Shown one piece after another: positions 30,162 to 42,636 of a stretch of DNA of 64,000 bases. Source of the stretch: Cenarchaeum symbiosum A (GTDB taxonomy: Archaea; Thermoproteota; Nitrososphaeria; Nitrososphaerales; Nitrosopumilaceae); NCBI GenBank assembly GCA_000200715.1, contig DP000238.1, positions 556,154 to 620,153 on the forward strand. The letters run 5' to 3'. A program made the translations under genes and the position numbers. Position 1 is the stretch's first letter, and every line of letters begins with the position of its first letter. The notes under the pieces were generated by a model, which saw only the letters and a list, made by a program, of their open reading frames with translations, was not told where the DNA came from and ran no database searches.

Positions 30162-30205
30162 CAGTCCGGATCGGTGCCCATGTAGAACGAGACAATATGG
30201 TTCGG

Positions 30206-33200
30206 TCACAGCCCCAGCAGTGACCTAAAGAACTCTGTTATTGCGTCTATTATGCCGGGTTCCTGTCCTGTCTCCACCCGTGCTACCGCGGGAGTGATTT
30301 TCGCAGAATCCTCTGCCCCCGGGACCGTGTCTGATTTTACGGCTTCCACGGGAATAATCGGCTCTGCCTCCGGTTCGGGCTCTGCGGGGACTGGCTCTGG
30401 ATCCATCTCGGGAACTATCACCGGCTCTGGATCCATCTCGGGCTCTACTGCCTGCACCGGGATTATCACCTCCGGCGCGGGTCCCGTATCCAGTGCATTT
30501 ACGGGCACAGATGACGGGTTTATCCTGTATACTTTGTCATGGGAGACAAGTATTATGCCGGAGTTGTCCCGGAGCTGCATGCTCATGGTCCCAGAGAACT
30601 CGCCTTCCAGGGGCACGGCAAGGCTCTCAAAGGAGCCGTCATTATCATCCCTGTATGACGCCCCGGAGGGGGATATCAGCGACTGCACGTCGCACGTGTA
30701 CAGGCTGCCGGATGCGGCCGCATCCCCCTCGCATTCCCTGTCAAAGAACGCCCCTATCCTGTTATAGTATATCTTGGCCTGGCCGTCTTCACTGGATATG
30801 ATGACCTCCATGTCGTATACGTCAAGGTCATCTGCTGACAGGGGGGATATCACCAGGGGCATGTTTGTCCCTATGATTATCTCGGAGCTCCCCCTTGATG
30901 CGTCCTGTCCATCGGCTGTAAACTCCAGCGAGACGTCGCGCCCTATGCTCGTTATACTGGTGGAGGTTCCGCCGCCACCGCCTCCTCCGCCTCCCCTGGG
31001 ACGGGGATCGGGCTGGGGATTGGGTTGGGAAACAGGCTGGGGATCAGGCTGGAGAGTGTTGGACGCAAAAGCAATTTGATGGTCCATGGAAACTGTCTCA
31101 ACCATGGCAGGCGTATCAGGGCCCATCATACCACTCCCGTCTTGGTTTACCGTTGGCTGTGGGATCTGCTCTTTTGGTTCGTACCGGCTTATGGAATCTC
31201 CCCCTGCCACAAAGAGCCCCGTGCCGTCGGCCGAGAAGGCAAGCCCATCGGCCCGCTGTCCTCCGGTATAGAACGAGCCCAGGTATTCCACCTGATCCAG
31301 ATCGTATGCCCTGCCGAGATCATGGCCGTATACGTGCCTGCCCTCCGAGACAAACATGCGCATACCGTCGGCCGAGAACTCCAGCCCCGAGAGCTGACCT
31401 ACATACTCCTCCAGATCGTACGAGCCGGAGGGTACAGGAGAGGTGATGTTGTATGGAGAGGAGAGGCTGTAGCGGCGGATGGATTCCCCGGCAACCACAA
31501 AGACGTGCATGCCTTCCTCGGAAAAGACAATGTCGCCAGTCCCGTGGACACCGTCCAGTTCAAACGAACCGGAGGCGGCGGGCTCGGATATGTCATACGG
31601 GGAGGACAGGTTGTAGCTGTGGACGGAGGCATTCTTGGCTTCCTGAACGTATTGGTTGCTGTTATATCCATACGAGTACTTGTATCCGCCGTATCTGGTC
31701 ACAAATATTGTGCTTCCGTCTGCCGAAAAAGCAATGCCAGCCGCGTCGTCATCGCCCCCCAGCCGGCCCATACCCACATACAGCGGGCTAGTCGTGTTGT
31801 ACGGCGAAGTGAGGTTGTAGCGGTATATGGCATCATGGCCCGCTATACCCGTGAACATGGCCATGCCGTCGGCCGAGAAGGCCACGTCGTAGACACTTCC
31901 GGACGAATCCAAGCCGTTGCGCGAGGTTACAAGCCGAGGTGATGTAATGTCGTACTGTGTCAGTATGTACCGGCTTATGGAATCTCCCCCTGCCACAAAG
32001 AGCCCCGTGCCGTCGGCCGAGAAGGCAAGCCCATCGGACCGCTGTCCTCCGGTATAGAACGAGCCCAGGTATTCCACCTGATCCAGATCGTATGCCCTGC
32101 CGAGATCATGGCCGTATACGTGCCTGCCCTCCGAGACAAACATGCGCATACCGTCGGCCGAGAACTCCAGCCCCGAGAGCTGACCTACATACTCCTCCAG
32201 ATCGTACGAGCCGGAGGGTACAGGAGAGGTGATGTTGTATGGAGAGGAGAGGCTGTAGCGGCGGATGGATTCCCCGGCAACCACAAAGACGTGCATGCCT
32301 TCCTCGGAAAAGACAATGTCGCCAGTCCCGTGGACACCGTCCAGTTCAAACGAACCGGAGGCGGCGGGCTCGGATATGTCATACGGGGAGGACAGGTTGT
32401 AGCTGTGGACGGAGGCATTCTTGGCTTCCTGAACGTATTGGTTGCTGTTATATCCATACGAGTACTTGTATCCGCCGTATCTGGTCACAAATATTGTGCT
32501 TCCGTCTGCCGAAAAAGCAATGCCAGCCGCGTCGTCATCGCCCCCCAGCCGGCCCATACCCACATACAGCGGGCTAGTCGTGTTGTACGGCGAAGTGAGG
32601 TTGTAGCGGTATATGGCATCATGGCCCGCTATACCCGTGAACATGGCCATGCCGTCGGCCGAGAAGGCCACGTCGTAGACACTTCCGGACGAATCCAAGC
32701 CGTTGCGCGAGGTTACAAGCCTAGACAAATCTATGGTAAATGGTATGGGTAATTCATATTCTTGCACATAGTCTTCCTGCAGTATGAACATCTTGGTACC
32801 ATTGCCTGAGAATGCCAGCCCGGTGGCATCATTGTCCTGCAGGTCTATGGATCCTGATCTGTTCAGCGAGGACAGGTTGTACGGCTCGGCTAGGTCGTAC
32901 TGATCCAGCATACTATACTCCATCAAGAACAACCTCGTTCCCTCCGGCGAGAAGGCCATGTCCAGGATTGATGTCTGGATATCTTGCGTTGAGTTGTATT
33001 CCGCCGTGGAGACATCATACGGCACAGGCAGCTTGTATGTCATTATCTGCCTGTAATTAGACACGAACATCATGTCCCCAGTCGTCGAGAAGTAAAGCCC
33101 TGTTCCATAGTAACGCCCGCCATACAAATCATACGATCCTACCTGCCGTGGTGCAATGATCTCGTACGGCTCGGACAGAGAGTATGTGTGCACAGACAAG

Positions 33201-35077
33201 CGGCTGCTATCTATGTATGAGAGTACGAACAACAAGGTGCCGTTAGCCGAGAAGGAAAAGTCAATGGTATTGCCATCTTCCGGACCCACGTATACGGAAT
33301 CCACAAATGAGGAGTCGGTGGTATTGTACGGCTGCGACAGGTCGTACCTGTACATATGATGGTCGTACCTACCCAGCATGAACATCTGGGCGCCGTCATC
33401 AGAGAAGACCAGTCCCTCGAAATAATCATTTTGTCCTCCGGTATGAAATATTAGATCACGTTCCGGAGCGGCAATGTCATACGTATGGGGCAGGTGATAT
33501 TCTTGCACATAGTCTTCCTGCAGTATGAACATCTTGGTACCATTGCCTGAGAATGCCAGCCCGGTGGCATCATTGTCCTGCAGGTCTATGGATCCTGATC
33601 TGTTCAGCGAGGACAGGTTGTACGGCTCGGCTAGGTCGTACTGATCCAGCATACTATACTCCATCAAGAACAACCTCGTTCCCTCCGGCGAGAAGGCCAT
33701 GTCCAGGATTGATGTCTGGATATCTTGCGTTGAGTTGTATTCCGCCGTGGAGACATCATACGGCACAGGCAGCTTGTATGTCATTATCTGCCTGTAATTA
33801 GACACGAACATCATGTCCCCAGTCGTCGAGAAGTAAAGCCCTGTTCCATAGTAACGCCCGCCATACAAATCATACGATCCTACCTGCCGTGGTGCAATGA
33901 TCTCGTACGGCTCGGACAGAGAGTATGTGTGCACAGACAAGCGGCTGCTATCTATGTATGAGAGTACGAACAACAAGGTGCCGTTAGCCGAGAAGGAAAA
34001 GTCAATGGTATTGCCATCTTCCGGACCCACGTATACGGAATCCACAAATGAGGAGTCGGTGGTATTGTACGGCTGCGACAGGTCGTACCTGTACATATGA
34101 TGGTCGTACCTACCCAGCATGAACATCTGGGCGCCGTCATCAGAGAAGACCAGTCCCTCGAAATAATCATTTTGTCCTCCGGTATGAAGTACACTTGCAT
34201 GCTCAAACCCTGTAAGCCTAGGGGATATACCAAATATCTCTTCACCGTAGTCGGACAGGACAGTAGGCTCAAAGTACAACAACGGCTGCGCATACCTGAC
34301 GACCTCTTGCCTGTTTTCCTCCGTGAGTCGGAATTTGATTGCTCCGGGGTTTTTCACGTCTACAAGTTCCATTTCTGATAGCGTAATTCCAAGCGACGAC
34401 ATAGTATCATTTCTTACCTGGATCCTCTCAGGTTGTATGGCAACGGTGTCAACCGTGTCATCAAATACGATCTCCAACACGCCCGTCTGTCTATCCATAT
34501 AGGCGAAAAGTACGCTAGTTGTGTAATTTACATCGCGTTCATCGCCACGATCATAGCCGCGTTCATCGCCACGATCATAGCCGCGTTCATCGCCACGATC
34601 ATAGCCGCGTTCATCGCCACGATCATAGCCGCGTTCATCGCCACGATCATAGCCGCGTTCATCGCCACGATCATAGCCATTATCTCTGTTCTCTACCACC
34701 GTAATCGTTCCTGTATGCCACGGGTGCACCGAACAAAAGTAAGGATAATCCCCTGGTTCCTCATGAAATATTCTGGAATATGATTCCCCCCTCTCTACGC
34801 TACCACTGTCGAAGAGGTTGTCTTCCTCCCCTATCCCTACTCCACTGGTCACTGTGTGGAAAAACATGTCTTCATTGATCCACGTTATCTCGTCACCCTG
34901 TTCAATTATGACATCGCTTGGAATGTCGCATTCATTGGTCTCTTCACAACCCTGCATGTATGAATTCTCTGATATTATGATGGTTGCTCCGGAACGATCT
35001 GCGTATGACGTGGTAGTGATTGCTACTGCTGCAATAATAAAAAACGTGAAAAACCAGCCAATATTCAGAACCTTCAT
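30206..35077 (-). CDS. giant secreted cupredoxin-propeller surface protein
   Basis: 1623 residues. A signal peptide (1-26) is followed by a plastocyanin-like copper domain (about 30-130) with candidate ligands His74 (MFFHTVTSG), Cys115 and His118 (YFCSVHPWHTG); the usual axial Met position is His121. Next come six GYDRGDER repeats (134-181), an Ig-like module, and about twenty propeller-type repeats (AFSADGxxxFV, RYxLSSPYN) with two internal tandem duplications. Then a Pro-rich stretch, nine glycines, a ~120-residue beta domain with two Cys, an acidic linker and the tail GIIDAITEFFRSLLGL. Probably exposed at the surface; copper suggests electron transfer, but this is inference. Confidence 0.82.
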   Translation of the reverse strand: MKVLNIGWFFTFFIIAAVAITTTSYADRSGATIIISENSYMQGCEETNECDIPSDVIIEQGDEITWINEDMFFHTVTSGVGIGEEDNLFDSGSVERGESYSRIFHEEPGDYPYFCSVHPWHTGTITVVENRDNGYDRGDERGYDRGDERGYDRGDERGYDRGDERGYDRGDERGYDRGDERDVNYTTSVLFAYMDRQTGVLEIVFDDTVDTVAIQPERIQVRNDTMSSLGITLSEMELVDVKNPGAIKFRLTEENRQEVVRYAQPLLYFEPTVLSDYGEEIFGISPRLTGFEHASVLHTGGQNDYFEGLVFSDDGAQMFMLGRYDHHMYRYDLSQPYNTTDSSFVDSVYVGPEDGNTIDFSFSANGTLLFVLSYIDSSRLSVHTYSLSEPYEIIAPRQVGSYDLYGGRYYGTGLYFSTTGDMMFVSNYRQIMTYKLPVPYDVSTAEYNSTQDIQTSILDMAFSPEGTRLFLMEYSMLDQYDLAEPYNLSSLNRSGSIDLQDNDATGLAFSGNGTKMFILQEDYVQEYHLPHTYDIAAPERDLIFHTGGQNDYFEGLVFSDDGAQMFMLGRYDHHMYRYDLSQPYNTTDSSFVDSVYVGPEDGNTIDFSFSANGTLLFVLSYIDSSRLSVHTYSLSEPYEIIAPRQVGSYDLYGGRYYGTGLYFSTTGDMMFVSNYRQIMTYKLPVPYDVSTAEYNSTQDIQTSILDMAFSPEGTRLFLMEYSMLDQYDLAEPYNLSSLNRSGSIDLQDNDATGLAFSGNGTKMFILQEDYVQEYELPIPFTIDLSRLVTSRNGLDSSGSVYDVAFSADGMAMFTGIAGHDAIYRYNLTSPYNTTSPLYVGMGRLGGDDDAAGIAFSADGSTIFVTRYGGYKYSYGYNSNQYVQEAKNASVHSYNLSSPYDISEPAASGSFELDGVHGTGDIVFSEEGMHVFVVAGESIRRYSLSSPYNITSPVPSGSYDLEEYVGQLSGLEFSADGMRMFVSEGRHVYGHDLGRAYDLDQVEYLGSFYTGGQRSDGLAFSADGTGLFVAGGDSISRYILTQYDITSPRLVTSRNGLDSSGSVYDVAFSADGMAMFTGIAGHDAIYRYNLTSPYNTTSPLYVGMGRLGGDDDAAGIAFSADGSTIFVTRYGGYKYSYGYNSNQYVQEAKNASVHSYNLSSPYDISEPAASGSFELDGVHGTGDIVFSEEGMHVFVVAGESIRRYSLSSPYNITSPVPSGSYDLEEYVGQLSGLEFSADGMRMFVSEGRHVYGHDLGRAYDLDQVEYLGSFYTGGQRADGLAFSADGTGLFVAGGDSISRYEPKEQIPQPTVNQDGSGMMGPDTPAMVETVSMDHQIAFASNTLQPDPQPVSQPNPQPDPRPRGGGGGGGGGTSTSITSIGRDVSLEFTADGQDASRGSSEIIIGTNMPLVISPLSADDLDVYDMEVIISSEDGQAKIYYNRIGAFFDRECEGDAAASGSLYTCDVQSLISPSGASYRDDNDGSFESLAVPLEGEFSGTMSMQLRDNSGIILVSHDKVYRINPSSVPVNALDTGPAPEVIIPVQAVEPEMDPEPVIVPEMDPEPVPAEPEPEAEPIIPVEAVKSDTVPGAEDSAKITPAVARVETGQEPGIIDAITEFFRSLLGL
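31181..32721 (-). repeat. two near-identical 755-bp direct repeats, period 786 bp
   Basis: 31181-31935 and 31967-32721 match almost base for base (one visible change: codon for Ala versus Ser in RADGLAF / RSDGLAF). Each encodes a ~260-residue five-blade unit of the surface protein. The period is a multiple of three. Confidence 0.9.
32756..34188 (-). repeat. two apparently identical 692-bp direct repeats, period 741 bp
   Basis: 32756-33447 and 33497-34188 show no difference that I could find by eye. Each encodes about 230 residues of propeller-type repeats in the surface protein. The period is a multiple of three, so copy-number change preserves the frame. Confidence 0.9.
34535..34678 (-). 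repeat. six perfect 24-bp tandem repeats encoding GYDRGDER
   Basis: The unit on the plus strand begins GCGTTCATCGCCACG and repeats six times without change. It forms a charged spacer between the cupredoxin domain and the rest of the protein. Not a CRISPR: there are no spacers. Confidence 0.93.
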
Positions 35078-35099
35078 TCTAGTAGAGCTTTATCGGTGG

Positions 35100-35121
35100 C
35101 ATAAAAACCCACTTGAATTTT
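35100..35121 (-). promoter_or_regulatory. TATA box with degenerate palindrome of the giant cupredoxin gene
   Basis: AAAACCCACTTGAATTTT (35104-35121) keeps the left arm and the TATA overlap of the element at 30144-30161, again centred 26-27 bases before the ATG at 35077; the right arm has two changes. The flanking GGTGGCATAAAAACCCACTT is the same in all three promoters. Confidence 0.65.
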
Positions 35122-35183
35122 CACGGGCGAATTTGGGCTAGTGTCTACACCAACTCTGATCCGCAGAATTAAACCGATAGATC

Positions 35184-36194
35184 GTGTTTTCTAGATGTCT
35201 GAAGTTTATAGATTACTGCCCTACTGGAACAACTGTATTGACCAGATTCTACAGGAGCCCACTGTTTGGGAGCATACGGGCATATCTCAAAGGCGGGTCC
35301 CCTGACCAGACAATCTTCATCTTTGTGCCGTATATCCGGACGGAGGCGCTCAGGGGCCTACTCGAGGATCTGCCCAACAGGGCGGTCATCGTGACCTCTT
35401 GGAGGCCGAGCGATCTCCGGCTAGGCTCATCGGATCTGGGACTGTATCCGTTTTGCCGTGAAAGGGGCATCGCCTTGTACATTAATGAGGATGTGCACCT
35501 CAAGGCGTACTCGCTGGACCTCTCTAGCATGATACTTGCCACCGGGAACATATCACAGCGGGGTCTTATGCCCGGCGGGAACCACGAGGCAGCAGTTCTT
35601 GTGGATCCGCTTGCGGCCGAGGACCACCTGTTCTTTGAGCACATACGGAACGAGTCAAGACTCGTGGACGATGACGTATACAACGCACTGGTACAATGGC
35701 TTGATAACAACAAGGCGCCTCCGGAAGAAGACGTTGCCATGAAGGACGTCATACCATCTCTCAAAAAGGACTATTTCCTCATATCCGAGCTCCCCATGAC
35801 CATGCACGTAGATGCCCTTGTAGATGGCTATTCATGTATACAACGGGGCCAAGAGCCATCAGATGATGCAGAGACTGCCGCATGTATCTTCCATGACATA
35901 GAAAACTATGGCATCAGACCGGGACTATCAGAGGGGCAGTTCCGAGAGTCCCTCGTGACTGCATTCTTTGCACATCCGTTCATACAACGAATAGACGGGT
36001 TCATAGCGCCAGAGGCATACTTTGGCAGGATAAAGGAGTGGATACAGAGTAACTGCACAGATGTCCCTGTGCCGAGTAGAAGGGAGCTCACCGGGAACGT
36101 CCAGGTGCTTCTCAGGTGGTTTGTGGAGCTGGCAGGAGACCGGTATGCAGTGGACATACCGGGGGCCCGCTCGGAACGCATAAGAAAGATCTAG
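35184..36194 (+). CDS. single-HKD phospholipase D-family nuclease
   Basis: 336 residues. The PLD-type active site is visible as NEDVHLKAYSLDLSSMILAT (His105, Lys107) followed by GNISQRGL and NHEAAVLV. Only one HKD-like motif is present, as in BfiI/Nuc-type enzymes that work as dimers and cut DNA. The C-terminal ~180 residues match nothing I know and may bind a partner or DNA. The gene converges on the GHKL ATPase of the neighbouring operon. The GTG at 35184 is the first possible start; an AT-rich box near 35166-35173 suggests the real start may be slightly downstream. A defence role is inferred from context. Confidence 0.72.
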   Translation: MFSRCLKFIDYCPTGTTVLTRFYRSPLFGSIRAYLKGGSPDQTIFIFVPYIRTEALRGLLEDLPNRAVIVTSWRPSDLRLGSSDLGLYPFCRERGIALYINEDVHLKAYSLDLSSMILATGNISQRGLMPGGNHEAAVLVDPLAAEDHLFFEHIRNESRLVDDDVYNALVQWLDNNKAPPEEDVAMKDVIPSLKKDYFLISELPMTMHVDALVDGYSCIQRGQEPSDDAETAACIFHDIENYGIRPGLSEGQFRESLVTAFFAHPFIQRIDGFIAPEAYFGRIKEWIQSNCTDVPVPSRRELTGNVQVLLRWFVELAGDRYAVDIPGARSERIRKI

Positions 36195-36224
36195 TGCGTT
36201 CGGGCAGGATGTCACATACTCGTC

Positions 36225-37997
36225 TTAACGCTTGAGAAAATGCTCAATCATCTCGCCCCAGTTGGTCCGTATTATCCCCATCATCTTGCGCTTTTCATCA
36301 TTTGACTCTTCGTCTTCAAGGCGCGCCCACGATGCTATGAGCAGGCGCAGGCCAGACCACATGTCCCGGAGGCGCTTTACGGCCTCGTCATGTTCTATGT
36401 CGTCCGGTATGTTCTCCACTATAGACATCAGATTGTTGTATGCACTGTGGCTTGTATTCATCTTGATTATGGCGACCCCGCCCTCCAGGCTGATGTCAAA
36501 GAACAGCGGGTTGTTGTAGCTGGCATTTTGAAAGACCACCCGTATCTTGTTTTCAATTATGTCGTTTATGAACCCGTTCATGTCATCGGTTGCCACCAGC
36601 CCGTCAAGCTCCTTTTGGATGTGCTCCTTTCTTGTCTGCTCGTCCTGTGTTGTAATCTGCTCGTCGGTCGTCCCCCTGTTTCCGCCCTCTGTCCTGCCCC
36701 TGAACTTGTCCGTGGGATCCGGGCCGTGCCTCTTGGGGTCGGACGAGCGCGTGCCTTTTCTCTGTATTGTAATCACCTTCCGCATCTGCCGTATGCGGGC
36801 CTGCAGCCGCTTGACAATGTGCGCCATGTCCTTGTCATCCTCGATGATGCTCTCCATGGCCGGGTTGTCATGGCTCTCCACCCCGTATAACTTGGTCATG
36901 GCGGTAAAGGTGGTGGCGTCTTGCTTGTTGTTGGTTATGCCAAAGAACTCGTCTAGCGCGGGCGGAAATTCTATCTCTGCCCCCCACCAGCGCTCCACCG
37001 GATCATAGGTGATGACCAGATTTTGGTCCATGCCAATCTCCCTGCCCTCCCTGACTATCGACACGCCCAGGTTGAAGTTTGCGTGGCGGCCGTGGGGCTG
37101 CCTTCCGGCGTCATCCCCTGTATCTGACAGCTTCCTGGCCTCTTTTTTTGCAAATGCAAAGCGCAGTGTGACTGCCTGGGGCTTTCCATCCCTGTCTTTG
37201 ACCTTTATGACCTCCTCCGGCTTTTCACCATCTGGCTGGAACATCGGCTCCCTGTCCCATGGCGGGGGTGCGGAGGAGTTTTTCATCTGGTATAGCGGGT
37301 CGTTTGGCCTCAGGTGCCTGTCGGCTGAGACCTCGTACGAGTTGTTTACGGATATCATCCGTATATCCAGTTTTTTAGAGCCCAAAAACCTGCGGTATAT
37401 CCTGCCTATCAGCTTCTCCGAGTTTGCAATCATTGTAGACGACTTTTTCCACGAGCACCGGTCCAGGCCGGACCAGACTACGACGGTCCCTGATTTGTAC
37501 GATCCCGCGCCAGACATGTCCCTGAGAATATCCGGCAGCTTTGCACGCTTTGGTTCCGGCACATCCCGCATGTTCTTGCCCTGAATTTCGTCTAGATCCA
37601 GGTATGTGTGCAGCACCTCCCCTGGCTTTTGCCAGCTGTACACGTCGACCCTCCTGCACTGGGACAGGGATGAATACGGGAGGCCCATGCCGAACCTGCC
37701 TATGCCCCTTCTCGCCCTGCGCGTGCCCTCTCCGAACCTCAGAGATTCCCAGAGATCTTCTTTTGTCATGCCCGTCCCGTTGTCCGTTACAATTATCTCA
37801 TGCATGCGCTCCACCATGTTCGCCAGGGAATCTTCTATCTTGTCCTTGCAGAAAATCTCTATCTTGTCCGCGTCAGCCTCAAATGAGTTGTCTATGATCT
37901 CGGCAATCGCATATGCCGGATTCTTGTACCCGCCGTACCGCATTGAATCAATTAAATTCTCGTTTGACAGGATGCTGCGGCTCTTAGTCATTTCCAC
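36225..37997 (-). CDS. MORC/MutL-like GHKL ATPase
   Basis: 590 residues with an N-terminal Bergerat-fold ATPase: N box AEIIDNSFEAD (about 32-42), G1 box DNGTGM (72-77), G2 box GIGRFGMGLPYSS (98-110). This order and the length fit the prokaryotic MORC-like ATPases found beside restriction genes. The C-terminal third has charged helices (DEQTRKEHIQKELDGLVATD) and an acidic end. ATP-driven dimer clamping on DNA is the family's expected mode. Its start overlaps the helicase stop by ten bases, so the two are coupled. Last gene of the minus-strand operon. Confidence 0.8.
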   Translation of the reverse strand: MEMTKSRSILSNENLIDSMRYGGYKNPAYAIAEIIDNSFEADADKIEIFCKDKIEDSLANMVERMHEIIVTDNGTGMTKEDLWESLRFGEGTRRARRGIGRFGMGLPYSSLSQCRRVDVYSWQKPGEVLHTYLDLDEIQGKNMRDVPEPKRAKLPDILRDMSGAGSYKSGTVVVWSGLDRCSWKKSSTMIANSEKLIGRIYRRFLGSKKLDIRMISVNNSYEVSADRHLRPNDPLYQMKNSSAPPPWDREPMFQPDGEKPEEVIKVKDRDGKPQAVTLRFAFAKKEARKLSDTGDDAGRQPHGRHANFNLGVSIVREGREIGMDQNLVITYDPVERWWGAEIEFPPALDEFFGITNNKQDATTFTAMTKLYGVESHDNPAMESIIEDDKDMAHIVKRLQARIRQMRKVITIQRKGTRSSDPKRHGPDPTDKFRGRTEGGNRGTTDEQITTQDEQTRKEHIQKELDGLVATDDMNGFINDIIENKIRVVFQNASYNNPLFFDISLEGGVAIIKMNTSHSAYNNLMSIVENIPDDIEHDEAVKRLRDMWSGLRLLIASWARLEDEESNDEKRKMMGIIRTNWGEMIEHFLKR

Positions 37998-39601
37998 ACA
38001 TCTTCCCAGTTTGCAAATGCATCTACTATGCTGTTAAATCCTGGCAGGTTTATATCTGTCACGGTGACCACGTCGCATTCCTTGGAACCGCCCATCTTCG
38101 GGCCCCGTATGGCCCTGCCCATCATCTGGCTGTAAAGAATCAGGGACTTAGTGGGGCGGGCTATGAGAACGGCCGATGTCTTGGGCGCGTCAAAACCGGT
38201 GGTCAGCACGCCGAAATTGCACATTATCCTGGTATCTGCAGTGTCCTCCCTAAAGTGGTTGATCAGGGAGTTTCGCACGTCCTTTGGGGTGTCGGAATCT
38301 ACATAGGATGCATCGTGCCCCATTGTGTGCAGTACTAGCGATATGTCGCGGGCATGGCGTATGCCGGCGGCAAACACTATGATGCGCCTGTGGTCTCTGG
38401 CAAGCCGCTTGATCTTGTCAATTATCAGCATGTTCCGCTTGGCATCGCGGGCCAGCTTGTCAAGTATGTCGTTGGGTATTTCAAGTGATTTTGCAATTCT
38501 TTCCATGTCGGAATTCGTCAGCATGCCGTCATGCCTTATCTGCTCAATGTTGGGCTTTGCCAGGTATCCATCCTTTATCAAAAAGCTTACGGGATCCGTG
38601 CCTGTCTCTATCGTCACTTTTTTTTCGTTAAAAAACTCTGCAAGCTTTCTATCTTCAAGGGGGCTGTTCCACGTCCTGCCGGGGGTGGCACTAAGGCCGA
38701 CAAGGTTGACATCATGCTTTTCCACCAGATAGCCAAGCACAAGCTTGTATGTCTCTGCAATGGCCTGGTGGGCCTCGTCAATTATTACCAGCGATGCCCT
38801 GTCGGCCAGCGTGGTCAGCAGCATGCTGTTGGTCCGCGCCCGCCTGTACACCTTGGAGAGGCCTGCAACGATCAGGCCCGACCTGCATTCGCGGCCAAGT
38901 ACGTCCGTATCATGCCCCCCAAACAGCCTGTAAATACTGACATCTCTGTTCCCGGTGTGCCTCCATGCCGACTTGAACTCTTCTATGGCCTGCTCGCACA
39001 ATTCCTCGCTGTATGCAAGCCAGATTACTAGCGATGAGGGGTTTTCCAAAAGCAGGTCGGCCACAACCCGCATCGCAATCCGAGTTTTTCCCCCGCCCGT
39101 TGGAACATGTAGGAGGACGCGCCCTCCCTCATGTTCCAGAATGTCCTTGATTCTGCTGACTGCGCCAATTTGATACTCAAACAGGGGCCGTTCTGCCTTG
39201 ACCAGCTCAATATCCGGCGGGCCTTCGTCCGGCCGGTGTTCGATCCACGGTACGCCAAAGAACCCAAAGAGAGCCTGCTCTGACTCTGAATTCTTTCTAA
39301 AAGACATGCGGGTTATGCTCTGATACGCGTCCTCCGCACTGTCCATCCCCAGTCTTTTTGCGAGCCTGGTTATGTCGTCCTGCCTCATGCTCATAACTAT
39401 GGCACTGCGCATATCCTTACTGCGCAGCATCTCTGCATGCGACATCCTGTCCAAGACGAGGGATGCCAGGGCGTGCAGCTGTGTCTCTTGCCCTAGTGCG
39501 TGCAGGATGTCTATGCAGTTTTTGCCGAGAAACACGTCTTGTATCTTGACTATGCCCATGTTTGTAATTGCTCTTTCTAGTTCACGGTTTTCAGGATGCA
39601 T
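37988..39601 (-). CDS. superfamily 2 DEAH helicase of a defence operon
   Basis: 537 residues. Walker A VPTGGGKTRIA (about 166-176), DEAH box IIDEAHQA (273-280), LSATPGRTW motif III, and motif VI QMMGRAIRGPKMGG. This is the COG1061-like helicase/translocase arrangement seen in restriction systems. A ~140-residue N-terminal extension of unknown fold (helical, charged) precedes the ATPase core. It starts 18 bases after the PAPS-reductase-like gene and overlaps the GHKL ATPase gene, so it is in the middle of one operon. DNA translocation or unwinding is the expected activity. Confidence 0.85.
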   Translation of the reverse strand: MHPENRELERAITNMGIVKIQDVFLGKNCIDILHALGQETQLHALASLVLDRMSHAEMLRSKDMRSAIVMSMRQDDITRLAKRLGMDSAEDAYQSITRMSFRKNSESEQALFGFFGVPWIEHRPDEGPPDIELVKAERPLFEYQIGAVSRIKDILEHEGGRVLLHVPTGGGKTRIAMRVVADLLLENPSSLVIWLAYSEELCEQAIEEFKSAWRHTGNRDVSIYRLFGGHDTDVLGRECRSGLIVAGLSKVYRRARTNSMLLTTLADRASLVIIDEAHQAIAETYKLVLGYLVEKHDVNLVGLSATPGRTWNSPLEDRKLAEFFNEKKVTIETGTDPVSFLIKDGYLAKPNIEQIRHDGMLTNSDMERIAKSLEIPNDILDKLARDAKRNMLIIDKIKRLARDHRRIIVFAAGIRHARDISLVLHTMGHDASYVDSDTPKDVRNSLINHFREDTADTRIMCNFGVLTTGFDAPKTSAVLIARPTKSLILYSQMMGRAIRGPKMGGSKECDVVTVTDINLPGFNSIVDAFANWEDVWK

Positions 39602-39619
39602 GATCTGTATATTATGACA

Positions 39620-40459
39620 TTACAAATGGCAGACGGTGCATGGCGTCTTGTCGTCGTCATCGTCAAGCGCGTCGGATAGCACGTCCATCAACGGGACGTT
39701 CTTTCTCTTCTCCTTTGCCTTTTTGAGGCTCTTTTCATGGTTTGCCATTATGTCGTCTCTCCTGTCTAGCAGTTGGGTCAGGGTCTCGCCCTGCGACCAG
39801 GTATACTGGCTTCCTTTCATGCCCTGCGCGCTAAAGTTGGCATCGCCAGCGACCCCTGCGTCCTTGAGGACCTTTTGTTCTATGGCCACCGCACGTTTGA
39901 ACAGTTCGGGGTGATGGTCCGCCAGCCCTACCCACTCTGCCTTTCTCTGGAAGAAGCAAAAGTAACAGCCTGAGCGGGTGCGCCACTTGTAGTATTCCGG
40001 GAGGTTTATCCCCGCATCATCAAGTATCTTGATGACGCCGGCGTGGTCTATGCCGTCGTCAATGAACGGAAACATGGTCTTTATGTTGGGCTTTGTGGAG
40101 ACGTAACCGGTACGGTTCTTTTCATCGGCCCTTATGGCCACGTATGATATTACCTCCTCGTCCCCGAGCCAGTCTTCTAGCGGCTTTATCTTGAGCAGAT
40201 TGGTGCACCAGCGCATCTGAGGGGAAGGCAGGGCTCCCCTGAACACCTCGAAATAATGGTCAAAGCTCCTAGTCGAGTTGAGCTTGGTTATCTTCCTGCC
40301 CAGCACTACCTCGAGCTTTGCCAAGTATGCGTATGTCTCGGGCAGCTCGGCCCCTGTATCGCAGAAAAAGTATTCCATGTCCGGCACCTTGTCGCGCATG
40401 TATACTGCAAGCGCACTCGAGTCCTTGCCGCCCGATATGCCGCAGACCTGCTTTACCAT
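39620..40459 (-). CDS. PAPS-reductase/DndC-like ATP pyrophosphatase
   Basis: 279 residues of the PP-loop family. The ATP-binding loop is GISGGKDSSALAVYM (7-21). Conserved cysteines include Cys85 (MRWCTN), CYFC (165-168, in RTRSGCYFCFFQRKAEW) and a C-terminal CTVC (274-277). The GCxxC segment followed by a basic stretch is typical of DndC-type proteins, which activate DNA or tRNA for sulfur insertion, more than of assimilatory PAPS reductase. The C-terminal ~60 residues are strongly charged (DALDDDDDK). No dndD or dndE homologue is present. Position in a helicase/GHKL operon argues for DNA modification or sensing rather than sulfate assimilation. Confidence 0.75.
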   Translation of the reverse strand: MVKQVCGISGGKDSSALAVYMRDKVPDMEYFFCDTGAELPETYAYLAKLEVVLGRKITKLNSTRSFDHYFEVFRGALPSPQMRWCTNLLKIKPLEDWLGDEEVISYVAIRADEKNRTGYVSTKPNIKTMFPFIDDGIDHAGVIKILDDAGINLPEYYKWRTRSGCYFCFFQRKAEWVGLADHHPELFKRAVAIEQKVLKDAGVAGDANFSAQGMKGSQYTWSQGETLTQLLDRRDDIMANHEKSLKKAKEKRKNVPLMDVLSDALDDDDDKTPCTVCHL

Positions 40460-40463
40460 GCGA

Positions 40464-40634
40464 TCACCGTATCTTGGAGGCCAGCCCGTCGAACTCTTTC
40501 TTGGTCACGGTAAGGCAGAACAGGACCTTGTTCGGCTTTTTTGCGTTCTTGATCATGGGGTAGAACTTGATTGTGTACTTGCCGTCGGTCTTTGTGACTT
40601 CGTATGGGCGCTCTCCTATTTTTTCCCTCATCAT
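40464..40634 (-). CDS. 56-residue protein leading the defence operon
   Basis: MMREKIGERPYEVTKTDGKY and FCLTVTKKEFDGLASKIR make a compact basic protein, probably a small beta-rich fold. Its stop is four bases before the ATG of the PAPS-reductase-like gene, and a TATA-like box (CATAAATA on the minus strand) is centred about 24 bases before its ATG, so it is the first gene of the operon. No family recognised; a small DNA-binding or partner subunit is plausible. Confidence 0.6.
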   Translation of the reverse strand: MMREKIGERPYEVTKTDGKYTIKFYPMIKNAKKPNKVLFCLTVTKKEFDGLASKIR

Positions 40635-40653
40635 GTTATAGCATTACTTCCAC

Positions 40654-40663
40654 GTATTTATGT
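40654..40663 (-). promoter_or_regulatory. TATA box of the helicase/GHKL/PAPS operon
   Basis: TATTTATG on the plus strand (CATAAATA on the coding strand), centred about 24 bases upstream of the ATG at 40634. Confidence 0.5.
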
Positions 40664-40866: not shown

Positions 40867-42636
40867 TTGTCTAGCATTTGTAGCGCCAACACTGATTCAT
40901 TGGGTGGCATACTGAATGGAAAAACTCGCTATACCATACCCGATTATCAGAGAAGATATATTTGGCCATCCGAGAGCGTCGAAATTCTATACGAAGATCT
41001 GGTGCTAGATTATGATGAAAGCGGAGAAGGGTACCTACTAGGCCCAATTGTAACCAAACAAGTATCTCCTAGATGTAAGGAAATCATAGATGGCCAGCAG
41101 CGCTTGATTAGCATGACGCTTTTGTTCTGTACGCTACGGGATTGTGTGGTTGAAAAACATCCACCACCCCCTGACGGCAGAGCGACTTTTGAGAAGTTCA
41201 TAAAATCTATTAACATTGCCATACAGGATGATAAAGGAGAACCCCTAATCGAATTAAACAATCGTAAAGCACGTGAGATTTTCAAGAAAATATGCGCTAG
41301 TTCAGACTGGAAACAAAAAAAACTTAAACACCGCCTGTTCTCGAACTATTTTGAGTTATTTAGCAGTGTGGAGGAGCTATGCAGTAAACGTTTTAAAGAA
41401 AGCAAAACGTATGGCGACGGAATAACCGCGATTAGAGAGTTGTTTGACAGGCTCAAGGCATACACCTATTTCATATCTGTTATGATACAGCATGATGATT
41501 ACACATTTCCCGTCTTTCAATCCCTCAATTCAAAAGGACAACCATTACACCAGTCAGATCTAATCAAATCCCATTTGTTAAGCATAGCTAACAAAAATGG
41601 CAAAAAATTCTACGATGAAGTTATTGGCAAATGGGATCAGATAACCAATCTACCAGAGAAGGAAAGTAAAAAAATTGATGAATTGCTCTACCATACAGCA
41701 CTATCCCGTGAGTGCGAGGATAAAACATCTGCCAAAGAAATCCGTAAGAATGACATGTACAAGAGCACTAAATACATAAAAACTCCTAATCAGATAAATG
41801 ATTATCTAGAAAATCTAGAGGAAGATGCCGAAATTTATAAAAAAATAGCCAATCCAGCAGCATTAAAAACCACTATTGACAGATATGCCCATATTCTTTA
41901 TGGAGCTGATCAAATTGGCGCTCGGTATTTTAAAAGAGCCATAATTGCTACACATAGAAAGAAAATAGATTCTGATGCTGTTAAACTGCTAGATTGCTTG
42001 GTCAAGTTCTTTTTTGTGTACAGGACGATTTGTAAGAAAGACATTGATCTATTGAAAAGCATTGCACATACTGTCACATGTAAAATCAACCAGAAAAAGG
42101 ATCTGGGCGAAATATTATGCAGCATATTGATAAATGATAAAGGACGTCAGAATGTAGGGTACGATGAATTTGCCAAAAAAATAAGAGAGAGGACAGATAA
42201 TCTTACAAACAATGTACTCAAATACATACTTTATTCGATCGAGTATAAGCTACAGGAGCCGCGTCCGGTAAAAAATACCCCCAATCTTGAATTGGAGCAT
42301 ATTCTTCCCCAAAAACCTGACAAAAAAGACTGGCACAATGCACCAAAACCAGATGAATATAAAAACGATCTAGGTAATGTCACGTTAATCAAAGAGAAAT
42401 TTAACAAAGACATAAAAAATCATGGTTTTATCAGAAAACGTGACGATGTGAAATCTGGTTACAAAGCATCGAAGTTGGAAATTAACCGACTTTATCTTAA
42501 TAATTACAATACGTGGGATGTGAAGCAGATAGAGGAACGCAGGGAGAATCTGTGCAAAAAAGCAGAGGAGATCTGGGATCTGTCGGAATATACCAAAATG
42601 GCCGAAGCGTACAAGGAAAAATCCAAACGCGGATGA
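40867..42636 (+). CDS. DUF262/DUF1524 fusion, GmrSD-like modification-dependent nuclease
   Basis: 589 residues. The DUF262 (GmrS-like, ParB-related NTPase) half shows IPDYQRRYIW (24-33), EIIDGQQRLISM and FQSLNSKGQPLHQSDLIKSH. The DUF1524 HNH-nuclease half shows LELEHILPQ (474-482), a conserved His/Asp region and LGNVTLI. Fused enzymes of this kind are type IV restriction systems that cut modified (for example glucosylated hydroxymethylcytosine) or phosphorothioated DNA. Start codon is TTG. The gene is far more AT-rich than its neighbours and rich in AAA/AAT codons, so it was probably acquired recently. It diverges from the PAPS/helicase/GHKL operon. Confidence 0.85.
   Translation: MSSICSANTDSLGGILNGKTRYTIPDYQRRYIWPSESVEILYEDLVLDYDESGEGYLLGPIVTKQVSPRCKEIIDGQQRLISMTLLFCTLRDCVVEKHPPPPDGRATFEKFIKSINIAIQDDKGEPLIELNNRKAREIFKKICASSDWKQKKLKHRLFSNYFELFSSVEELCSKRFKESKTYGDGITAIRELFDRLKAYTYFISVMIQHDDYTFPVFQSLNSKGQPLHQSDLIKSHLLSIANKNGKKFYDEVIGKWDQITNLPEKESKKIDELLYHTALSRECEDKTSAKEIRKNDMYKSTKYIKTPNQINDYLENLEEDAEIYKKIANPAALKTTIDRYAHILYGADQIGARYFKRAIIATHRKKIDSDAVKLLDCLVKFFFVYRTICKKDIDLLKSIAHTVTCKINQKKDLGEILCSILINDKGRQNVGYDEFAKKIRERTDNLTNNVLKYILYSIEYKLQEPRPVKNTPNLELEHILPQKPDKKDWHNAPKPDEYKNDLGNVTLIKEKFNKDIKNHGFIRKRDDVKSGYKASKLEINRLYLNNYNTWDVKQIEERRENLCKKAEEIWDLSEYTKMAEAYKEKSKRG

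Follow-up and report, generated by a model that had tools for sequence, protein, structure and literature searches.

The DNA analysed here, called the window, is a stretch of 64,000 nucleotides from the sponge-symbiont archaeon Cenarchaeum symbiosum A that corresponds to positions 556154-620153 of its single-contig genome of 2,045,086 bp, and the subject of the analysis is a set of five genes at 35184-40663 of this window. An earlier note on this DNA had proposed that four of these genes form an operon of a candidate defence system that faces a nuclease gene; all five open reading frames (ORFs) were found in the window where it had placed them, and the claimed layout is real. The four minus-strand genes, which encode a 56-aa protein, a PP-loop protein, a superfamily 2 (SF2) helicase and a MORC-like GHKL ATPase, are spaced by 4 nt and 18 nt and end in a 10-nt overlap, and the gene of a phospholipase D (PLD)-family nuclease converges on the ATPase gene, at a distance of 30 nt (Table 1). 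The set is not an assembly by chance, because the same genes recur jointly in unrelated genomes and the PP-loop gene, named sspD below, shows a ratio of nonsynonymous to synonymous substitutions (dN/dS) of ~0.045. The helicase, the ATPase and the nuclease are referred to as the trio.

The helicase is composed of ResIII (3.4e-21) and Helicase_C domains, with intact Walker A (PTGGGKT), DEAH and motif VI. It matches the RadD model at 5.9e-36, its best defence model is PbeA (4.4e-19), and its profile retrieves the SauUSI structure at 6.6e-30. The GHKL ATPase carries an HATPase_c_3 domain (4.7e-24) with conserved N-box and G-boxes, and its description as MORC-like is borne out both by a profile comparison with the PDB, in which MORC2, MORC3 and MORC4 rank first, and by its predicted fold (predicted local distance difference test, pLDDT, 80.4), whose best match is MORC3 (Z 22.5, 306 residues, 3.8 Å, spanning residues 1-415 of the protein). 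MORC3 is tied in this comparison with SMCHD1 and stands above MutL and topoisomerase VI; "MORC-like" is used here as a label that leaves the division between MORC and paraMORC proteins aside. The PLD protein is only weakly recognised by Pfam (PLDc_2, 0.053), and a PDB sequence search with its profile returned nothing convincing. In the fold predicted for it (pLDDT 86.9), residues ~9-173 align with SauUSI (Z 16.0), Nuc (14.2) and BfiI (13.8), in line with the BfiI-like nuclease that the earlier note had seen in it. The protein consists of one HKD-type site, in which H105, K107, N122 and E135 are invariant in 23 sequences, and a conserved C-terminal helical domain, which has no clear structural counterpart among the matches listed for the whole-protein fold and was not folded alone. 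Catalytic motifs are intact in all three members of the trio.

Table 1. Features of the locus, in window coordinates; L003 denotes the second sspD locus of the same genome
Feature	Position	Strand	Remark
PLD-family nuclease, 336 aa	35184-36194	+	converges on operon
MORC-like GHKL ATPase, 590 aa	36225-37997	-	GTG start; ATG possible at 37991
SF2 helicase, 537 aa	37988-39601	-	RadD/PbeA/SauUSI-like
SspD, PP-loop sulfurtransferase, 279 aa	39620-40459	-	one of two genomic copies
56-aa ORF	40464-40634	-	first gene of operon; Nitrosopumilaceae small-protein family
TATA-like box CATAAATAC	40655-40663	-	candidate archaeal operon promoter, proposed from sequence
GmrSD-like (DUF262-DUF1524) gene	40867-42636	+	divergent from operon
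Duplicated segment: surface-protein gene and PLD 5' end	30205-35401		homologous to L003 1255-6032, 77-90% DNA identity
Duplicated segment: sspD	39620-40463		homologous to L003 6062-6905, 85% DNA identity

Phosphorothioate genes and the distribution of the trio

The PP-loop protein had been labelled DndC-like, a label that does not hold. It matches the PADLOC model of SspD over its full length (E 2.5e-109) and contains a PAPS_reduct domain in Pfam (4.5e-10), whereas it reaches only 14.7 bits against the DndC model TIGR03183, whose cut-off is 290.4. Judged by its sequence, it is therefore the SspD of Ssp, the system of single-strand phosphorothioate (PT) modification, rather than a DndC. A second sspD, 92% identical to the first, lies ~27 kb downstream, and it is adjoined, outside the window, by sspB (DUF4007, 7.3e-85) and sspA (cysteine desulfurase, 2.7e-126), at 624965-627069 of the genome. 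No match to SspC was found genome-wide with two SspC queries, for which six related genomes were positive as controls, and a DndD query had no match in the C. symbiosum genome either. SspC is required for PT in characterised Ssp systems. If it is needed here as well, either the trio is silent without PT, or PT is made otherwise, or the locus is decaying. A partial PT system in C. symbiosum had been stated before from DUF262/DUF1524 domains (PMC7848895), and the identification of SspD, SspA and SspB adds to that statement.

Both sspD loci go back to one ancestral unit by segmental duplication, and the simplest order for that unit is sspA-sspB-sspD-helicase-MORC with a convergent PLD gene. A frameshifted 5' fragment of the PLD gene persists between the second sspD and the neighbouring surface-protein gene, which indicates that the second locus has lost the helicase, the MORC gene and most of PLD. 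Homology upstream stops at the start of sspD, which is preceded by sspB-sspA in one locus and by the 56-aa ORF in the other. With a dS of ~0.96 and a dN/dS of ~0.045 between them, both sspD copies have been kept under selection.

The co-occurrence of the genes in other genomes, which the earlier note had put forward as a check, was examined by a profile scan of a species genome collection, which brought up at least 430 relatives. In the 80 best-scoring loci, located mostly in cyanobacteria, actinobacteria, Bacteroidota, Chloroflexi and proteobacteria, the result is strongly positive: MORC is directly adjacent to the helicase in 77 of the 80 and has a PLD gene as neighbour in 58. When only the 52 loci with fetched flanks of 7 kb or more on both sides are considered, at least one of SspB, SspC and SspD is found within the fetched flanks (10 kb) in 46, and all three in 37. 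A common gene order is sspA-B-C-D-helicase-MORC-PLD, and public annotation names the products of the trio "DEAD/DEAH box helicase", "ATP-binding protein" and "phospholipase D family protein". The same linkage is seen on plasmids, where full-length MORC occurs on 12, with SspC on the same record within ~15 kb in 11 of them; SspC itself is present on just 60 of 72,556 plasmids, of which 11 also carry full-length MORC. Plasmid A of Trichormus variabilis ATCC 29413, for instance, carries the trio together with sspABCD. The 56-aa protein and the PP-loop protein, which had been counted as members of the set, fall outside the trio, the relatives being mostly helicase-MORC-PLD beside sspABCD. A DndB-like gene was also noticed in several sspBCD loci (L076, L093, L123, L126, L133 and the Trichormus plasmid locus, L164 6866-9172), where it separates sspD from the helicase or is a neighbour of the trio; DndB otherwise belongs to Dnd systems, yet it is present at these loci.

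Among archaea, the nearest relatives found are metagenome-assembled genomes (MAGs) of Cenarchaeum, and a strong MORC match is present in 11 of 250 Nitrosopumilaceae genomes. The helicase adjoins MORC in all 12 archaeal loci; the fetched surroundings include PT genes for ten of the 12, and such genes are present somewhere in the genome for 11 out of 11. Among them are SspABCD in L036, L037 and L042, DndABCDE in L038, L039 and L040, and DndA, DndD and DndE in L043. Since the neighbours of the trio are Dnd genes in these four archaeal loci, the PP-loop and 56-aa proteins are again not trio members. Conversely, all six of the 250 Nitrosopumilaceae genomes that encode SspB, to which the four with Dnd neighbours come in addition, have the MORC-helicase pair (p ~1e-9, phylogeny ignored), as do, for MORC, all four genomes with a sound SspB among 398 genomes of the phylum, a set that overlaps the 250. 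A MORC tree separates an Ssp-linked clade, which includes C. symbiosum, from a mainly Dnd-linked archaeal clade; the latter holds two Ssp-linked members, L041 and L042, which suggests that the module has been exchanged between systems.

Relation to known systems

The PT-dependent restriction branches listed in a 2025 review are only DndFGH/SspFGH, SspE and PbeABCD (PMC12707154), and the trio is different from SspE, SspFGH, DndFGH and PbeABCD. With Ssp systems that use SspE or SspFGH, the locus shares SspD, the SspA and SspB of the sister locus, and the placement of effectors beside modification genes; the effectors here are instead a helicase, a MORC-like ATPase and a PLD nuclease, and SspC is missing in this genome. 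SspE shares its GmrSD architecture with the GmrSD-like neighbour of the operon. Identity with SspFGH, raised by the order sspA-B-C-D-helicase-MORC-PLD, was ruled out, as SspFGH is defined by a Walker A SspF and an FtsK-like SspH (PMC8092258), whereas the three genes here encode an SF2 helicase, a GHKL protein and a PLD protein. On an Agrobacterium plasmid, FtsK-containing genes of SspFGH-like layout stand directly beside the trio.

Haloarchaeal DndCDEA-PbeABCD is likewise a PT-linked restriction system with PLD and ResIII-type helicase activities, which are fused in PbeA (PMC6459918). PbeA has as partners a CxC ABC ATPase, a DndE-like protein and a small protein. In the present locus, by contrast, PLD and helicase are encoded separately, on opposite strands, and are accompanied by a GHKL ATPase. 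Neither the CxC ABC ATPase (PbeC) nor the DndE-like PbeD is found in the operon, and the DndD query, whose family overlaps that of PbeC, finds nothing genome-wide. In SauUSI and CglI/NgoAVII, too, a PLD-type nuclease is driven by an SF2 motor (PMC7913695, PMC5737866), but SauUSI is a single polypeptide and recognises modified cytosine, CglI/NgoAVII lack a MORC-like ATPase, and none of them is PT-linked.

A precedent for the combination comes from the MORC and paraMORC operons of Iyer et al. 2008, in which a GHKL ATPase, an SF2 helicase and a nuclease, in some cases of HKD type, form a restriction arrangement (PMC2292703). The trio joins the same elements, namely a GHKL ATPase with an S5-like domain, an SF2 helicase and a nuclease; those operons are tied to DNA methylases, and a text search of that paper turned up no PT partner for them. 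MzaB of the MZA system has an N-terminal GHKL domain like that of the ATPase (3e-20 over ~200 residues), but the match to MzaB attains 72.1 bits against a cut-off of 850, and the scanned genes include no further recognisable MZA component. Finally, type-4 BREX shares homologues of SspB, SspC and SspD; the annotations of the Trichormus and Hymenobacter loci name neither PglZ nor BrxL. The claim of an undescribed operon therefore stands for one half: no named system was found to combine helicase, MORC and PLD in this way, and no description of the set was found in the titles, abstracts and passages of the open literature, subscription papers lying outside the search, whereas the modification half is the known Ssp.

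A putative PT-dependent restriction module and its alternatives

From the identity of the genes, their intact motifs, the linkage of the trio to Ssp genes (Dnd genes in archaeal relatives) and the ancestral single locus in C. symbiosum, it is probable that the locus is a PT-based defence locus with an undescribed three-protein restriction module of SF2 helicase, MORC-like GHKL ATPase and PLD nuclease. With somewhat less assurance, the trio is proposed as a further branch of PT-dependent restriction that extends across archaea and bacteria and is paired with the single-strand PT machinery of Ssp as well as the double-strand one of Dnd. In such a system, SspA, SspB and SspD, with SspC where it is present, would put sulfur into one strand of the host DNA. 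The helicase would load onto DNA and travel along it, the MORC-like ATPase would, driven by ATP, clamp the DNA or hold a loop of it, a role that has been proposed for GHKL proteins in MORC restriction systems (PMC2292703), and a PLD dimer would cut, PT marks deciding if cutting is allowed. PLD and helicase resemble the two halves of SauUSI, a translocating restriction enzyme of PLD type; SauUSI and CglI both couple a nuclease of this type to a translocating SF2 motor (PMC7913695, PMC5737866). The three proteins may form one complex that restricts viruses under the control of PT. The division of labour put forward in the earlier note, with the PP-loop protein marking DNA, helicase and MORC surveying it and PLD cutting it, is likewise a hypothesis. 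Candidates for the reader of the PT state are the C-terminal helical domain of PLD and the N-terminal domain of the helicase.

The loci away from PT genes bear on the direction of this control. Seven loci without nearby SspB, SspC or SspD were checked genome-wide, and SspC was found elsewhere in three and nowhere in four. Three of these four are orphan helicase-MORC pairs that lack both PT genes and PLD, in Microcoleus vaginatus HSN003 (L086) and in Chloroflexi (L084, L091), where an orphan pair adjoins a rhamnose-utilisation operon. This joint absence of PT genes and nuclease, in no more than three cases from two lineages, would fit a PT mark that shields the host from the nuclease; on account of these three pairs, a self-marking role, in which PT prevents cutting, is slightly favoured. 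A PT-activated mode, by analogy with SspE and Pbe, which are silent without PT (PMC8092258, PMC6459918), would fit about as well with the reverse case of C. symbiosum, where an intact and complete trio occurs without SspC. The fourth locus, from a Pleurocapsa MAG (L073 9959-12616), has MORC and PLD as one 885-aa ORF; this fusion was not counted, as it comes from a single MAG and lacks the conserved WARxED end of MORC, so that a deletion is possible. Further orphan helicase-MORC pairs with short flanks were noted in L066, L082 and L090.

Several points weigh against a PT-dependent module. The 80 loci are the best-scoring ones and not a random sample, closely related genomes being counted apart, and PLD was not recognised beside 22 of the 80 helicase-MORC pairs. 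Helicase-MORC pairs also exist without PLD or PT genes, as in the three orphans above, and PT is doubtful in C. symbiosum itself, which has neither SspC nor DndD. Linkage alone cannot separate PT control from the co-transfer of independent defence genes, and the activity and mode of the trio are predictions from computation. The trio might be an independent restriction system of the MORC type described by Iyer et al. 2008, with a recognition signal of its own, serving as a backup effector that PT does not control. The orphan pairs speak for such independence, as does MORC plus SF2 helicase plus nuclease as a known theme with no stated link to PT (PMC2292703). We nevertheless regard it as quite improbable, given that the PT link is near-constant in loci with long flanks and holds for the unrelated Ssp and Dnd, and that PLD is missing from the three PT-less orphan pairs checked genome-wide. 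Restricted to this genome, a decaying remnant, in which SspC is gone, PT is not made and the restriction genes are non-functional, would account for the absence of SspC in the face of six positive related genomes and for the locus that is already without the trio; it is unlikely, because the ORFs of the window locus are all intact with conserved motifs and both sspD copies are under selection.

A rearranged PbeABCD, with PbeA split into PLD and helicase and MORC in place of PbeC and PbeD, would be suggested by PbeA as the best defence model of the helicase and by its PLD-ResIII composition (PMC6459918), and the small PbeB is of a size like the 56-aa ORF. This derivation is nonetheless very unlikely: the helicase is nearer to RadD, the CxC ABC ATPase and the DndE-like partner are missing from the operon and a DndD match from the genome, and the 56-aa family was not found in the same-genus relative, most genomes outside Nitrosopumilaceae that bear the pair not having been searched for it. 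The earlier note had itself named sulfate assimilation or tRNA thiolation as the role of the PP-loop protein that would speak against its proposal, if the protein acted in nothing else. On this reading the neighbours of the PP-loop gene would be unrelated to it. A weak generic likeness to PAPS reductases is compatible with such a role, but the reading is contradicted by the full-length SspD match, SspA and SspB at the sister locus and SspABCD in other genomes, and it hardly merits credence.

If the trio is indeed a PT-dependent module, some of the ~84% of sspBCD loci for which no effector is known would thereby gain one. SspE and SspFGH are absent from 83.9% of 2,678 sspBCD loci, for which undiscovered restriction partners are one proposal (Wang et al. 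2021, PMC8092258), and sspE is lacking from 5,518 of the 5,530 Ssp loci of Acinetobacter baumannii (PMC12421847). The widespread occurrence of helicase-MORC-PLD makes the question of the missing partner directly testable in culturable bacteria. MORC-like ATPases would then be tied to the reading of a DNA backbone mark, and clamp ATPases whose eukaryotic relatives silence genomes would be linked to a prokaryotic epigenetic mark of the backbone.

Promoter, small ORF and neighbouring genes

The archaeal TATA-like sequence CATAAATAC sits ~25 nt 5' of the first ATG of the operon, a position that would fit a single leaderless transcript. The 56-aa ORF is one of a group of related ~55-aa proteins that occurs in 17 of 250 Nitrosopumilaceae genomes; several members are encoded directly 5' of dndB-led operons or adjoin the PLD gene of PT loci (relatives at L039 18.8 kb, L040 17.6 kb, L042 0.66 kb and G149 C25:41218).

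Giant duplicated surface proteins are encoded beside both sspD copies (window 30206-35077, L003 1256-5713). They contain a plastocyanin-like domain and large internal repeats, and the copy number of a 24-bp tandem repeat differs between them. Upstream of sspA, an IS66-type transposase is flanked by two near-identical GRAM-domain genes (L003 9282-13775), possibly a mobile context.

On the other side of the operon, the GmrSD-like character that had been ascribed to the divergent neighbour is confirmed by its GmrSD_N (4.1e-31) and GmrSD_C (1.5e-24) domains. Against PADLOC, this gene matches HEC-06 at 1.2e-69 and SspE at 2.1e-18, and it may be a second effector of the locus. GmrSD genes are also located near other Ssp loci, namely L041, L035 and that of Hymenobacter.

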